Source: Sphingomonadales bacterium
GTDB lineage: Bacteria; Pseudomonadota; Alphaproteobacteria; Sphingomonadales; Sphingomonadaceae
Length of the DNA stretch: 64,000 bases
Assembly: GCA_027486415.1 (NCBI GenBank)
Contig: JAIXPC010000002.1
Coordinates: 248,001-312,000, forward strand
Direction of reading: 5' to 3'
Positions within the stretch are counted from its first letter, which is position 1. Every line of letters begins with the position of its first letter. This document shows, one piece after another, positions 5,304-50,065 of the stretch. Below the pieces are notes generated by a model. It searched no databases, was not told the DNA's origin, and was given only the letters and a program-made list of their open reading frames with translations. A program made the translations under genes and the position numbers.

Positions 5304-5750
5304 GTGATTCGACTCACCAATCTTGCCGATTATGCCGTCGTCGTGATGGCCGCCGCCGCGCGCGAACCGGCGGTGAAACTGTCGGCCGCCCGCGTGGCGG
5401 AACTGACGAATATTCCCGCACCCACCGTGGCCAAGCTGATGGGCACGCTGGCGCGCGGCGGCCTGCTCACCGCGTCGCGCGGCGTGTCGGGCGGCTTCAC
5501 CCTGTCCCGCGAACCGCAGGCGATCAGCGTCGCCGAAGTCGTGGAGGCGGTGGACGGCCCGATCGCGCTGACCAGCTGTTCGGGCGGGGACATCAACGAT
5601 TGCGCGATGGAAGGCCATTGCGCCATTCGCGGCCACTGGGGGCCGATCAACCAGGCCGTGCGCGGGGCGCTTGCCGCCGTGTCACTGGCCGATCTGGTGC
5701 AGCCGGCGGCAGCGGCGACACCGGTGCATCAGCCCGCCCTGGCTGGCTGA
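5304..5750 (+). CDS. Rrf2 family SUF iron-sulfur assembly regulator
   Basis: 148 residues from the GTG at 5304, which has AGGAA 7 nt upstream; a GTG at 5280 lacks a ribosome-binding site. The protein starts IRLTNLADYAVVVMAAAA, typical of Rrf2 regulators, with the winged-helix recognition segment around NIPAPTVAKLMGTLARGGLL and RGVSGGF. Three cysteines follow in the C-terminal half (TSCSGGDINDC and GHCAIRGHW), the spacing used by IscR/SufR-type proteins to bind an iron-sulfur cluster. It probably senses cluster supply and controls the suf genes that follow 21 nt downstream, as well as itself. Confidence 0.88.
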   Translation: MIRLTNLADYAVVVMAAAAREPAVKLSAARVAELTNIPAPTVAKLMGTLARGGLLTASRGVSGGFTLSREPQAISVAEVVEAVDGPIALTSCSGGDINDCAMEGHCAIRGHWGPINQAVRGALAAVSLADLVQPAAAATPVHQPALAG

Positions 5751-5771
5751 CCGACTGTTTGGAAGAAGACG

Positions 5772-7289
5772 ATGGCTGACGAGACTGCCGAAACCCTGTC
5801 TGCTGCCCACGACACTGCTGTGCCGGTGCAGGATGCGGCCGCGCGCGCGGCCGTCGATGATCTGGCCACCTACAAATGGGGCTTCACCTCCGACGTTGAA
5901 AGCGAGCTGGCGCCCAAGGGGCTGAACACCGATATCGTCCGCTACATCTCGGCCAAGAAGGGCGAGCCGGAGTGGCTGCTCGATTGGCGGCTGAAGGCCT
6001 TTGCCAAGTGGGAGGCGATGGAAAGCCCGGAGTGGGCCAAGCTCGACATCGCGCCGATCGACTATCAGGACGCCTATTACTACGCCGCGCCCAAGGCCAA
6101 GCCGACACTGGCGTCGCTGGACGAGCTCGATCCCGAAATCCGCCGCACCTATGAAAAGCTGGGCATCCCGATCGAGGAGCAGAAGGTGCTAGCCGGGGTC
6201 GAAGGCGCGCGCAAGATCGCGGTGGATGCCGTGTTCGACAGCGTGTCGGTCGCCACCACCTTCCGCGAGGAGCTGAAGAAGGCCGGCGTCATCTTCCTGT
6301 CGATCTCGGAAGCGGTGAAGGAATATCCCGACCTGGTGAAAAAATGGCTCGGCAGCGTCGTTCCGGTCACCGACAATTATTTCGCCTGCCTCAACAGCGC
6401 GGTCTTTTCCGATGGCACCTTCGTCTACATCCCCGAAGGCGTGCGCTGCCCGATGGAGCTTTCGACCTATTTCCGCATCAACGCCGCCAACACCGGCCAG
6501 TTCGAACGCACGCTGATCATCGCCGACAAGGGCGCTTACGTCTCGTATCTGGAAGGCTGCACGGCCCCGATGCGCGATGAAAACCAGCTGCACGCCGCCG
6601 TGGTGGAACTGGTCGCGCTGGACGATGCCGAGATCAAATATTCCACCGTGCAGAACTGGTATCCCGGCGATGCGGACGGCAAGGGCGGCATCTACAATTT
6701 CGTCACCAAGCGCGCCAACTGCCTGGGCCGTAACAGCAAGGTGAGCTGGACGCAGGTCGAAACCGGCAGCGCCATCACCTGGAAATATCCCAGCTGCGTG
6801 CTGTCGGGCGAAGGATCGGTCGGCGAATTCTACTCCGTGGCCGTCACCAACAACCGCCAGCAGGCCGATACCGGCACCAAGATGATCCACCTCGGCAAGA
6901 ACACGACCTCCACCATCGTGTCCAAGGGGATCAGCGCCGGCAAGTCGAACGGCACCTATCGCGGGCTGGTGCGCGTCGCCGCCACGGCGGAAGGCGCGCG
7001 CAACTTCACCCAGTGCGACAGCCTGCTGCTCGGCTCCAACTGCGGCGCCCACACCGTGCCCTATATCGAATGCCGCAACCCGTCGGCCACCATCGAGCAC
7101 GAGGCCACCACGTCCAAGATCAGCGACGATCAGCTGTTCTATGCCCAGTCACGCGGGCTGGATGCAGAAGCCGCCGTTGGCCTGATCGTCAACGGCTTCT
7201 GCCGCGAGGTGCTGCAGCAGCTGCCGATGGAATTCGCCGTCGAGGCGCAAAAGCTGCTCGGCATCAGCTTGGAAGGCTCGGTCGGGTGA
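5772..7289 (+). CDS. sufB: Fe-S cluster assembly scaffold SufB
   Basis: 505 residues, a normal length for SufB. SufB, SufC and SufD form the SUF scaffold complex in the cytoplasm. Family landmarks are clear: the N-terminal region [19 protein letters not shown], the beta-helix core with [20 protein letters not shown], the segment [19 protein letters not shown], and the C-terminal [20 protein letters not shown]. The stop codon overlaps the GTG start of a small lipoprotein gene (GTGA), so the two are probably translationally coupled. Confidence 0.97.
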
Positions 7290-12750: not shown

Positions 12751-14073
12751 ATGGGGGAACAGCGCCAGATCGCGGGCCATCCGGCGGGCCTGACCATCGT
12801 CACCATTGCGGAGGCGTTGCAGGCCGCCGGCATCTACGGCGTGCAGGCGCTGCTGATCCTCTACATGGCGAATTTCCTGTTCACGCCCGACCAGCTGGCC
12901 AGCGTCGGCGGTTTCGGCGCGTGGCGCGACCTGCTGGAATCGCTGTTCGGCCCGATGAGCCTGCAGGCGCTCGCCACCCAGACGATGGGGCTTTATCTCG
13001 GCCTGTTCTTCCTCACGCCGCTGCTGGGTGGCTGGATCGGCGATCGCCATTGGGGGCCGCGCCTCACCTGCATCATTGCCGCCGTGCTGGCCACCGCCGG
13101 CATGGTGATGGTTGTGATCCCCGCTACCTTTCTGCCCGGCCTGCTGGTCGCGGCCTTTGGGGCGGGTGCCTTGCGCTGCAATCTCAACGCCCAGACCGGC
13201 CATCTCTATGCCCGCGACGATGGTCGCCGCGATGCCGCCTTCTCCATCCTTGCCGGCGGGCTCAACACCGGCGCCTTCCTCGGCCCGCTGCTGCTGGGGA
13301 TGCTGGGGGAACGCGTGAACTGGCAATATGGCCTTGCGGCCGCCTGTGGCTGCATGGCGCTGGCCGCCATCGTGCTGCTGATCGGCAACGGCCTGATGCC
13401 GCCCGACACGCCGCCCGAAACCCGCAAGGCGGCGCGCCTGCAACCGGGGGACGGCCGCATCATCGCCGCGCTGGTGGGCGTGATGCTGATCAGCAGCCTG
13501 TTCTGGCTGGCACAAAGCCAGGTGTGGAACGTCTATGCGCTGTGGGGGCGCGACCATCTCGATCGGATGTTGTGGGGGTTCGAGGTGCCGGTGACCTGGC
13601 TGCAGGCGTTCGACAGCCTCGCCCCCATCCTGGCCGTGCCGCCGGTGCTGGCGCTTTGGAAACGTCAGGCCGCACGCGGGCGCGAGCCGAAGGAGCTGGG
13701 CAAGATCGGCATCGGCATGGCGCTGATGGGCATCGCCTTCCTGTGGCTGGCGGCCGGCAGCGGCGCGGACAAGACTCCAATCCTGTGGGTGGTGGCCTTC
13801 CACCTCGTGCTCAACATCGGCTGGCTCTACCAGGTGCCGACGGTGAACGCGCTGTTCTCCCGCACCGCGCCCGTTGCCATCACCGGCGTCATGCTGGGCG
13901 CGGTGTCGTTCAGCGTCTTCATCGGCAGCACCCTTTCAGGCTGGCTCGGGCGCTTTTACGAAACGATGGACGTGCAGGCCTTCTGGCTGCTCCACGCCGC
14001 CTTTCCGCTGGCCGGTGCGGCAGTGATGTCGGCAGTGCGCGGACGATTGGCGCGGGTGCTCAATCTGACATGA
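12751..14073 (+). CDS. POT/PTR family peptide transporter (MFS)
   Basis: 440 residues with about 12 membrane helices. The start of the first helix (TIVTIAEALQAAGIYGVQAL) resembles the POT family ExxER region, but here it reads EALQA, so the usual ERFxxYG motif is altered. Further family features are GLFFLTPLLGGWIGDRHWGP (cytoplasmic loop 2-3) and the helix 4-5 region GAGALRCNLNAQTGHLY. Proton-driven di- and tripeptide uptake is the family function; the changed first motif leaves doubt about coupling. A GTG at 12742 in the same frame is an alternative start. Confidence 0.8.
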   Translation: MGEQRQIAGHPAGLTIVTIAEALQAAGIYGVQALLILYMANFLFTPDQLASVGGFGAWRDLLESLFGPMSLQALATQTMGLYLGLFFLTPLLGGWIGDRHWGPRLTCIIAAVLATAGMVMVVIPATFLPGLLVAAFGAGALRCNLNAQTGHLYARDDGRRDAAFSILAGGLNTGAFLGPLLLGMLGERVNWQYGLAAACGCMALAAIVLLIGNGLMPPDTPPETRKAARLQPGDGRIIAALVGVMLISSLFWLAQSQVWNVYALWGRDHLDRMLWGFEVPVTWLQAFDSLAPILAVPPVLALWKRQAARGREPKELGKIGIGMALMGIAFLWLAAGSGADKTPILWVVAFHLVLNIGWLYQVPTVNALFSRTAPVAITGVMLGAVSFSVFIGSTLSGWLGRFYETMDVQAFWLLHAAFPLAGAAVMSAVRGRLARVLNLT

Positions 14074-21469: not shown

Positions 21470-21551
21470 TTGTCATGCTGGCGCAGGCTAGCATCCACCG
21501 TGCCGAGGGCGCGAGTCCGTCAATGGATGCTGGCCTGCGCCAGCATGACAA
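21470..21551. repeat. 28-bp inverted repeat between convergent genes
   Basis: 21470-21497 and 21524-21551 are inverted copies of one another with a single mismatch in 28 bases (core GTCATGCTGGCGCAGGC), separated by 26 nt. It fills the space between the ends of the TPR gene and hisE. It may be a two-way terminator or a copy of a dispersed palindromic repeat. Confidence 0.75.
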
Positions 21552-48100: not shown

Positions 48101-49378
48101 ATGAGCCAGTCCCTGATTGCCCGCCTGCGCGACCTGGTCGCCAGCGGTGAAGAATCCAAGGCCGGCATGGCCCGCGCCGCCGGCCTGCACGCAAACAGCC
48201 TGCGCGCGCTGGACGAGGAGGACTGGAACCCCACCAGCGACACGCTCCGCAAGCTGGAAAGCTGGCTGGCCGACCGCAATGCCGGCCCGGCACTGGCCAG
48301 CATCGAGGAGATCATCGACGAGGCCCGCAACGGCCGCATGTATATCCTGGTCGATGACGAGGACCGCGAGAACGAGGGCGACCTGATCATTCCCGGCCAG
48401 ATGGCGACGCCCGATGCCATCAACTTCATGGCCAAGTTCGGCCGCGGCCTGATCTGCCTCGCCATGGCATCCGAGCGCGTGAAGGCGCTGGGCCTGCCGC
48501 TGATGGCGCAGCACAACGGCACCCGCCATTCGACGGCCTTCACCGTTTCCATCGAGGCCAAGGAGGGCGTCACCACCGGCATTTCGGCGGCTGACCGGGC
48601 CCGCACCATCGCGGTCGCCATCGACGCCGCCAAGGGCCCGGAGCATATCGTTTCGCCGGGCCACGTCTTCCCGCTGGTGGCGCGCGACGGCGGCGTGCTG
48701 GTCCGCGCCGGCCACACCGAGGCATCGGTGGACATCAGCCGCCTTGCCGGCCTCAACCCCAGTGGCGTCATCTGCGAGATCATGAACGACGATGGCACCA
48801 TGGCGCGTCTGCCCGACCTGATTCCGTTCGCCCGCCGCCATGGCCTGAAGATCGGTACCATCCGCGATCTGATCGCCTATCGCCACCGCCACGACCGGCT
48901 GGTGAAGTGCGTGGCCGAAACGCGCCTCGAAAGCTGGCACGGCGGCGAGTGGGTGGCGAAAACCTATGCCAACACCGCCGAATATTCGGAACACATGGTG
49001 CTGCAGAAGGGCCGCATCGAACCCGGCAAGCCCACGCTGGTCCGCGTCCACACCCAGTCGATGTTCACCGACATGTTTGCCGAGAAGGGCAACCGCGCCG
49101 GCCAGTTGCAGCGCGCCATGGACGTGATCGGCGAGGAAGGCGCCGGCGTCATCGTCATCATCCGCGACGGCAGCCCCACCGCCATTTCCGAACAGATGCG
49201 CGCCAAGGGGCAGGGCGAATCCATCGTGCTGCGCGACTATGGCATCGGCGCCCAGATCCTCGTCGATCTTGGCGTCAGCGACATGATCCTCCTCACCAAC
49301 CAGCATCGCAACATCGTCGGCATCGAAGGCTATGGCCTGCACGTCGTCGGCGAACGCGCCATCCCGCCCCGGAGCTGA
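48101..49378 (+). CDS. ribBA: DHBP synthase with N-terminal HTH-like domain and degenerate RibA domain
   Basis: 425 residues, in three parts. Residues 1-60 (SLIARLRDLVASG, KAGMARAAGLHANSLRALDE, SDTLRKLESWL) look like a Cro/C1-type helix-turn-helix, which normal RibB lacks. Residues ~65-265 are DHBP synthase with the active site intact: ILVDDEDRENEGDLIIP, QHNGTRHSTAFTVSIEAKEG and GHVFPLVARDGGVLVRAGHT. It makes dihydroxybutanone phosphate from ribulose 5-phosphate. The C-terminal ~150 residues follow the GTP cyclohydrolase II fold (ending LRDYGIGAQILVDLGVSDM) but lack the three zinc cysteines, so that activity is probably absent. The leader carries overlapping inverted repeats. Confidence 0.92.
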   Translation: MSQSLIARLRDLVASGEESKAGMARAAGLHANSLRALDEEDWNPTSDTLRKLESWLADRNAGPALASIEEIIDEARNGRMYILVDDEDRENEGDLIIPGQMATPDAINFMAKFGRGLICLAMASERVKALGLPLMAQHNGTRHSTAFTVSIEAKEGVTTGISAADRARTIAVAIDAAKGPEHIVSPGHVFPLVARDGGVLVRAGHTEASVDISRLAGLNPSGVICEIMNDDGTMARLPDLIPFARRHGLKIGTIRDLIAYRHRHDRLVKCVAETRLESWHGGEWVAKTYANTAEYSEHMVLQKGRIEPGKPTLVRVHTQSMFTDMFAEKGNRAGQLQRAMDVIGEEGAGVIVIIRDGSPTAISEQMRAKGQGESIVLRDYGIGAQILVDLGVSDMILLTNQHRNIVGIEGYGLHVVGERAIPPRS

Positions 49379-49644
49379 GGGTCCAAACTCAATGAGGATA
49401 GGGGTCGTCACGATGTCAGGAAGGCCGATGGAAGTGAGCGAGCGCAGCCAGATAGCAGCGCTATCTGGCAATCGAGCGAGCGCGCCATCGGCCTTCCTGA
49501 CATCGCCCCACGGGTGGGCCGGAGCGGCGATATGGCGTCGTTGCGGTCACTCGCCGGGGGGCGAAGCCCCGCCAGCGCACCCGCGCCTAGCCAAATCGCC
49601 GCTCCGGCCCATGCCGACCCCTATCCTCATTGAGTTTGGACCCT
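49378..49644. repeat. Three-stem palindromic element between ribBA and ribH
   Basis: Outer arms 49378-49407 and 49615-49644 are perfect inverted copies (30 bp; outer end AGGGTCCAAACTC). Inside are a perfect 21-bp inverted repeat (49411-49431 with 49485-49505, itself capped by CCAGATAGC-AGC-GCTATCTGG at 49448-49468) and a perfect 17-bp repeat (49515-49531 with 49595-49611). Linkers of 3, 9 and 3 nt leave a compact three-way junction. It is not a known FMN riboswitch. No target duplication or transposase is seen. It separates the GGAG at 49371-49374 from the ribH start. Confidence 0.9.
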
Positions 49645-49648
49645 AACT

Positions 49649-50065
49649 ATGAACATCCTGATCGTCGAAGCCCCGTTCTACACCCACATCGCCGCCATGC
49701 AGCGCGATGGCGTCACCGCGGCGCTGAAGGCCGCCGGTGCCACCTGGGAGGTGATCTCCGTTCCCGGCGCGCTGGAAATCCCCGCCGCCATCGCCTTTGC
49801 CGAACAGTCCGGCCAATATGATGGCTATGTCGCGCTGGGCTGCGTGATCCGCGGCGAGACCTATCATTTCGAAGTCGTCGCCGGCGAAAGCGCCCGTGCC
49901 ATCATGGCGCTCACCCTTGATGGCCTCGCTATCGGCAACGGCATCCTGACCGTGGAGAACGAGGCCCAGGCCATCGCCCGCGCCGACAAGGGCCAGAAGA
50001 ACAAGGGCGGTGAGGCCGCCGAAGCCGCGCTGGCCATGGTGGCGCTGAAGCAGCGCTTCGCCTGA
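49649..50065 (+). CDS. ribH: 6,7-dimethyl-8-ribityllumazine synthase
   Basis: 138 residues, a normal lumazine synthase: [20 protein letters not shown], substrate loop [31 protein letters not shown] and the end [18 protein letters not shown]. It condenses the products of RibD and RibB. No ribosome-binding site other than a weak GGA in the right arm of the upstream element precedes the ATG. The usual nusB neighbour is missing. Confidence 0.95.

Follow-up and report, generated by a model that had tools for sequence, protein, structure and literature searches.

A covarying palindromic mobile element inserted between ribBA and ribH in a Sphingomonadales bacterium, with copies often at stop codons across its genus

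Bacterial MITEs, such as the Correia, Nezha and ERIC-type elements, are short, dispersed repeats with terminal inverted repeats that lie mostly between genes. REP and REPIN sequences are likewise palindromic, non-autonomous and gene-flanking, and are moved by RAYT transposases of the Y1 family, whereas integron attC sites are recognised through a folded structure with variable paired stems. A structure lying between a Shine-Dalgarno sequence and a start codon can shorten the effective spacing, from 22 to 5 nt and from 27 to 11 nt at the split sites of phage T4 genes 38 and 25 as given in the cited part of that account (PMC3014915). Mobile hairpins are also described in fungal, algal and sponge mitochondria as double-hairpin and repetitive hairpin-forming elements, those of Allomyces being said, in the sections cited, to have no flanking duplications (PMC2800124).

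The 267-nt element described here has something in common with each of these, and MITEs together with the mitochondrial hairpin elements are the closest known things. It differs from MITEs in having several covarying stems and a stop-codon position, with neither a consistent target duplication nor an autonomous partner found. Compared with REP and REPIN elements it is much longer than a REP, and the Y1 family is missing from 23 of the 24 genomes of the genus. Its likeness to attC sites lies in the variable paired stems and in a presumed recognition through the folded shape. A mobile hairpin that lacks flanking duplication is found here as in the mitochondrial double-hairpin elements, but the parallel is an analogy only, since those elements, in the part of the source cited, are organellar and consist of single, double and some triple hairpins. 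We know of no stop-codon rule for them. The T4 structures, as far as the cited part describes them, are fixed, small and native, in contrast to a mobile element of 267 nt.

The element lies in a 64,000-nucleotide stretch of the genome, referred to here as the window, whose positions are used throughout (Table 1). Its first A forms the third base of the ribBA stop codon and AACT stands between its last base and the ribH ATG, so that the gap between the two genes is nearly, though not quite, filled, where an earlier note on this DNA had it filled exactly; the spacing of GGAG and ATG without the element is 7 nt, where that note had counted 8.

Table 1. Features of the ribBA-ribH junction and of the element, in window positions
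Feature	Position	Strand	Basis
ribBA (DHBP synthase / GTP cyclohydrolase II)	48101..49378	+	ORF, Pfam DHBP_synthase and GTP_cyclohydro2
GGAG, native ribH ribosome-binding site, stranded upstream of element	49371..49374	+	sequence, relatives, site scoring
TGA stop of ribBA, divided by the element boundary (TG|A)	49376..49378	+	ORF; stop in same place in empty relatives
Palindromic mobile element, whole, 267 nt	49378..49644	.	repeats, empty site in relatives, genus copies
Outer stem (terminal inverted repeat), 5' arm, 30 perfect pairs	49378..49407	+	inverted repeat, covariation
Arm A stem, 5' side, 21 bp perfect	49411..49431	+	inverted repeat, covariation
Inner hairpin within arm A loop, 10 pairs	49447..49469	+	both-sided changes in 3/10 pairs, 18 copies
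Arm A stem, 3' side	49485..49505	+	inverted repeat, covariation
Junction linker CCC-CAC-GGG, 3-bp mini-hairpin	49506..49514	+	stem invariant, 18 copies
Arm B stem, 5' side, 22 bp with a single mismatch	49515..49536	+	inverted repeat, covariation
Arm B stem, 3' side	49590..49611	+	inverted repeat, covariation
Outer stem / terminal inverted repeat, 3' arm	49615..49644	+	inverted repeat, covariation
ribH (lumazine synthase)	49649..50065	+	ORF, Pfam DMRL_synthase; only copy found in 97.5% complete genome

The element at the ribBA-ribH junction is an insertion. It is absent from all 15 ribH junctions displayed (L008-L022, from 80 ribH loci fetched), and in the five closest relatives (L008-L012) the ribBA stop runs directly into the ribH start, e.g. 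CGGAGCTGAATCTCATG, with the same GGAG at the ribBA 3' end. The mobile insertion that the earlier note had suspected is thus borne out, and the empty junctions and further copies for which it had proposed a search were both found: a second copy lies on the same contig of the same genome, about 131 kb away, with 89% identity over the inner 231 nt, and many more are spread across the genus. For seven other copies, the flanks were joined and searched against the 24 genus genomes, and contiguous empty orthologues were recovered at all seven sites, in 7-20 other genomes per site among the matches listed (hand count). Among the matches listed, no other genome showed two half-matches separated by about 267 nt, some genomes matching on one side only; at the smc site, the halves are split by other gaps in G010 (about 730 nt), G005 and G012 (about 40 nt each). 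Eight sites were aligned, and in four of them (L136, L137, L144, L147) the length changes by exactly the element, with no net duplication, though one to four bases next to the junction often depart from the empty sequence, on the right side frequently becoming A or AA. The element is an insertion present in multiple copies, and at none of the eight sites did an aligned relative carry it; its transposition is deduced from these comparisons of presence and absence.

An inverted-repeat check upheld the stems of 30, 21 and 17 bp and the linkers of 3, 9 and 3 nt given in the earlier note. The 17 bp are the perfect part of arm B (49515-49531 with 49595-49611), which is interrupted by a single A.A mismatch at 49532. 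That note had drawn these stems as a closed three-way junction; the three stems hold, but the 9-nt linker pairs with itself in the predicted fold, and the folded strand would for that reason really be a four-way junction. The linker has the general form CCC-NNN-GGG, its CCC and GGG being invariant in 18 copies. With 30-bp ends and a length of 267-271 nt, too short for a transposase, the element has the build of a MITE, and neither a promoter nor a terminator was found inside it by consensus. The pairing exceeds what chance would give: exact inverted pairs of 17-mers no more than 300 nt apart occur in the 64-kb window only at the element and at about 21.4 kb. The latter place (21470-21551) holds a separate 28-bp inverted repeat (TTGTCATGCTGGCGCAGG...), 96% complementary with 26 nt between its halves, which is possibly another dispersed REP-like palindrome.

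Covariation was examined in an alignment of 18 ungapped copies from eight genomes, six of the 24 two-ended copies being excluded because their length is not 267. Standard pairs make up 98.1% of the 1314 pair cells against 80.0% after shuffling, 46 of the 73 pairs are changed on both sides against 26.5, and 230 cells are changed on both sides against 55.9, counts that do not represent independent events as the copies are related. When the partner is slid by 1-3 columns only 30-45% remain paired. All four Watson-Crick forms were seen at twelve pairs, and the stem pairs differ in 30% of comparisons against 12% for loops and linkers. A selected RNA fold should tolerate G-U and not A-C. The mismatches comprise 15 G.T, 14 A.C and 11 others among the 1314 cells, and on the transcribed strand of 15 copies 10 G.U and 13 A.C; the absence of a G-U bias agrees with the earlier note, which had taken pairing free of G-U changes as a sign of recent insertion or of selection on the DNA. 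Copies are also mixed in orientation, 8 of the 24 lying along and 10 against co-directional neighbours, with 6 between convergent, divergent or unclear genes. As G.T is no commoner than A.C and gene orientation is mixed, pairing seems to be kept at the level of DNA. Selection on an RNA appears unlikely from these alignments, which leaves selection on folded DNA or arm-to-arm copying. One-sided mismatches, however, persist in otherwise recent copies (L146, G010 burst) and speak against instant arm-to-arm correction. The idea that variable stem segments act as guides matching the insertion flanks was discarded, the longest words shared with a copy's own flanks being the same as those shared with foreign ones.

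Across the family, copies are found at stop codons and not at ribosome-binding sites, whichever way they are oriented. Of 88 ends belonging to 45 copies, scored for a coding frame running into the element, 54 were scorable, and at 33 of these a stop codon lies exactly across the boundary, 30 as T|AG and 3 as TG|A or TA|A (the bar marking the element end), while any other stop offset occurs at most twice. The count becomes 30 of 51 after three antisense hits are dropped (window right, L144 left, L149 right) by a filter that considers hits in the own genus only and keeps misses. For random phase and composition, the chance rate is 8.5% per end and the tail 2e-20 on a hand-copied list (31/52); on this same list, the tail is 5e-4 even if T is assumed always to precede the element. 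The ends read AG inward on both strands, so that a stop is rebuilt whenever an in-frame T precedes. In five of the eight empty sites the old stop stands at the insertion point, TGA in the window (TAA in L010), TGA in L137, TAG in L138, TAA in L140 and TGA in L144; the empty sites of L136, L145 and L147 have no in-frame stop there. At L118, L095, L096, L098 and L101, a single copy appears to serve two convergent genes with one stop per end. The simplest reading of these junctions is that a T|R target preference together with purifying selection may explain the placement, and direct homing to stop codons would be a bold one.

Matches to the element were found in 16 of the 24 genus genomes, its own included, two of these being weak (G014, G016); the G014 locus L101 folds like the element. 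A family-wide search matched 25 of 298 genomes at E<=0.001, several of the matches being short and near chance, with at most two candidates scored per genome. Two other genera have diverged copies in 2 of 6 and 3 of 14 genomes, and genome G123 shows nine places with matches of at least 138 nt. Among 13 folded loci, ten have the whole plan with different stem sequences and are 267-271 nt long (L095, L096, L159-L163, L168, L173, L182); the plan was not shown in L164, which is cut by a contig end, L183, with arm A only, and L165. An Alphaproteobacteria-wide search of 385 genomes at E<=1e-6, likewise scoring at most two candidates per genome, returned the own genome only, diverged stems being such as to defeat blastn. 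Blastn against plasmids and phages, and one exact pattern against viral contigs, gave no matches. In G010 and G001 there are contigs that break off within such palindromes, and copies are therefore likely under-counted. The literature searched, in the main outside the subscription journals, yielded no description of the family.

For 12 of the 18 copies, the nearest neighbour belongs to a different genome, and mean identity is 82% within and 79% between genomes, near-equal values that would fit a shared, diverse pool and not one master copy per genome. One group of loci in G010 (L126-L133, L146, L188-L190, together with L148 of G022) forms a burst in which 11 loci begin with an identical 30 nt. 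In 11 of the 13 burst loci viewed, the flank of another palindrome (ggcggctggggcct|aggccccagaccc) is present on at least one side, and L189 shows an empty copy of this palindrome beside one burst locus; a compound repeat of element and other palindrome seems to have spread in G010. Other copies vary in their arms. L119 (G006) matches L139 on the left side of arm B and L118 on the right, with mismatches unrepaired, and from its sequence looks like a chimera. In L122 and L237 the arm B loop contains additional sequence, which in L122 is a further small hairpin, and L124 and L129 have one arm absent or mostly so with the outer stem still paired. Further genus subfamilies have ends TAGGTCGTGAACTCATAAATGG or TAGGGTCAGGACCTG (L098 and L109 of G013, L097 of G009, L099 of G020), the second arm of L098 being shortened.

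No mobilising enzyme was found among the three families checked, Y1 transposase, IS630-type DDE_3 and reverse transcriptase. The Y1 family occurs in a single genus genome (G001) and in none of the 16 with matches, the window's own genome among them, and the label REP-like that the earlier note had offered is accordingly not supported in its strict, RAYT-related sense. DDE_3 is present in three of the 16 (G005, G013, G017), and reverse transcriptase in five of the 24 genus genomes and four of the 16 (G006, G007, G014, G016); none of the three families occurs in G000, G008, G010, G011 or G015. On this distribution, with 0, 3 and 4 of 16 matching genomes, the three were rejected as drivers. The reverse-transcriptase route is weakened rather than closed, because G006 has the gene on a copy-bearing contig. 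In this genome, the one with most element matches in the genus, contig C113 carries a reverse transcriptase gene at 13021-13692 and an element copy at 5653-5921. Of 20 stretches fetched, the 12 that were viewed contained no longer element sharing these ends, though contigs often break at these palindromes. TA stands at both ends of 15 of 43 copies, at one end of 23 and at neither of 5 (T|A at 53 of 86 ends), and a TA duplication as a rule was rejected on the first of these counts.

Nine copies examined in detail have a start codon no more than 5 nt away, those of ribH, HemD, PurK, SMC-like, RpoN, PucC, NlpC/P60, transglutaminase and one unassigned protein (L116), the other eight being named from a Pfam scan. 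As the only copy found in its genome, ribH is presumably still expressed. A possible, though somewhat doubtful, explanation is a shunt as put forward in the earlier note: folding of the outer stem would place a ribosome-binding site or stop from the far side next to the start, and downstream genes would still be translated. The predicted RNA fold of the flanks is identical with and without the element, and the T4 genes cited at the outset offer a precedent, but there about 16-17 nt are looped out in the part of the source cited, not 267. A single-copy ribH and family genes such as hemD, purK, smc and rpoN so close to copies are consistent with such a shunt. The far-side site is clearly better than the site in the element in four of the nine copies, with -5.8 vs -3.0 kcal/mol for ribH, -4.9 vs -3.0 for pucC, -5.8 vs -3.3 for nlpC/P60 and -5.6 vs 0.0 for rpoN; against this, it is level in three and weaker in two. 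Further points against it are that the predicted fold has GGAG and ATG largely paired whether the element is there or not (mean probabilities of 0.75 and 0.82 in its presence), that the 3' arm of the element holds a weak GGA of its own, and that transcription would have to run through 267 untranslated nt. Shunting appears plausible for ribH, yet it would not be why the element family exists.

Taken over all copies, the element is probably a non-autonomous mobile DNA palindrome, moved or recognised in folded form by an enzyme. The folded form, in single strands or as a cruciform, would comprise the outer stem, the two long arms and the mini-hairpin where they join. A T|R-like target preference (T|AG, T|GA, TA|A), filtered by purifying selection, would leave survivors on inter-gene stop codons, where the termini restore the stop and the next start stays intact. 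Pairing would be selected because only well-folded copies move on, and ribH may be expressed by shunting over the folded stem or from the weak GGA in the 3' arm. An ordinary MITE, i.e. a deletion derivative of a TA-duplicating DDE insertion sequence whose full-length partner was missed or lost and whose pairing is merely that of terminal repeats, would account for the 30-bp terminal repeats, the small size, the many T|A ends and the G010 burst with its identical outer-stem starts. We regard it as rather unlikely, as target duplication is inconsistent, IS630-type transposase is present in only three of the 16 matching genomes, no longer element with these ends was met in the stretches viewed, and covariation in three stems together with loop conservation is no hallmark of MITEs.

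The pairing itself admits two other accounts. Quasi-palindrome correction, in which one arm is rewritten from the other through template switching or hairpin repair, would produce pairing that is not selected, and it agrees with the equality of G.T and A.C and with an excess of double over single changes (86 vs 50) among 14 close pairs with overlapping membership. It is unlikely nonetheless, since one-sided mismatches persist in L146 and L119, the latter an apparent chimera with unrepaired arms, and since loops more conserved than stems would require selection on the loops anyway. A structured RNA, either regulatory or a non-coding RNA gene, acting in mRNA with covariation arising from selection on its fold is very improbable. 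The covariation is indeed very strong, the domain is closed and leaves flank folding unchanged, and the position in operon junctions is repeated, but G.T is no commoner than A.C on either strand, copies lie against their co-directional neighbours about as often as along them, and the relatives' orthologous junctions lack the element. The Rfam 15 covariance models gave no match at the gathering score, and the twelve matches at E<=10 were all far below their own cut-offs.

The mobile, folded palindrome preferred here could be taken further, to a new class of mobile element, recognised by shape and not by sequence, that moves in the form of folded DNA and homes to stop codons, which either of its ends would restore, while its closed outer stem would place the stop next to the following start and keep operons working; this extension is speculative and, in our estimate, less probable than not by a good measure. 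To our knowledge, ageing mobile elements normally keep sequence and lose structure, whereas here the stems diverge widely yet stay paired, a pattern that points to shape as what is recognised. Even strong covariation among intergenic repeats does not prove a functional RNA, and the comparison of G.T with A.C, which separates pairing at the DNA level from that at the RNA level, is applicable elsewhere. The stop-codon placement shows how a 267-bp palindrome can enter housekeeping operons (ribH, hemD, purK) while sparing both neighbours, and an element of the new class, if it is one, could land between essential genes almost unnoticed.
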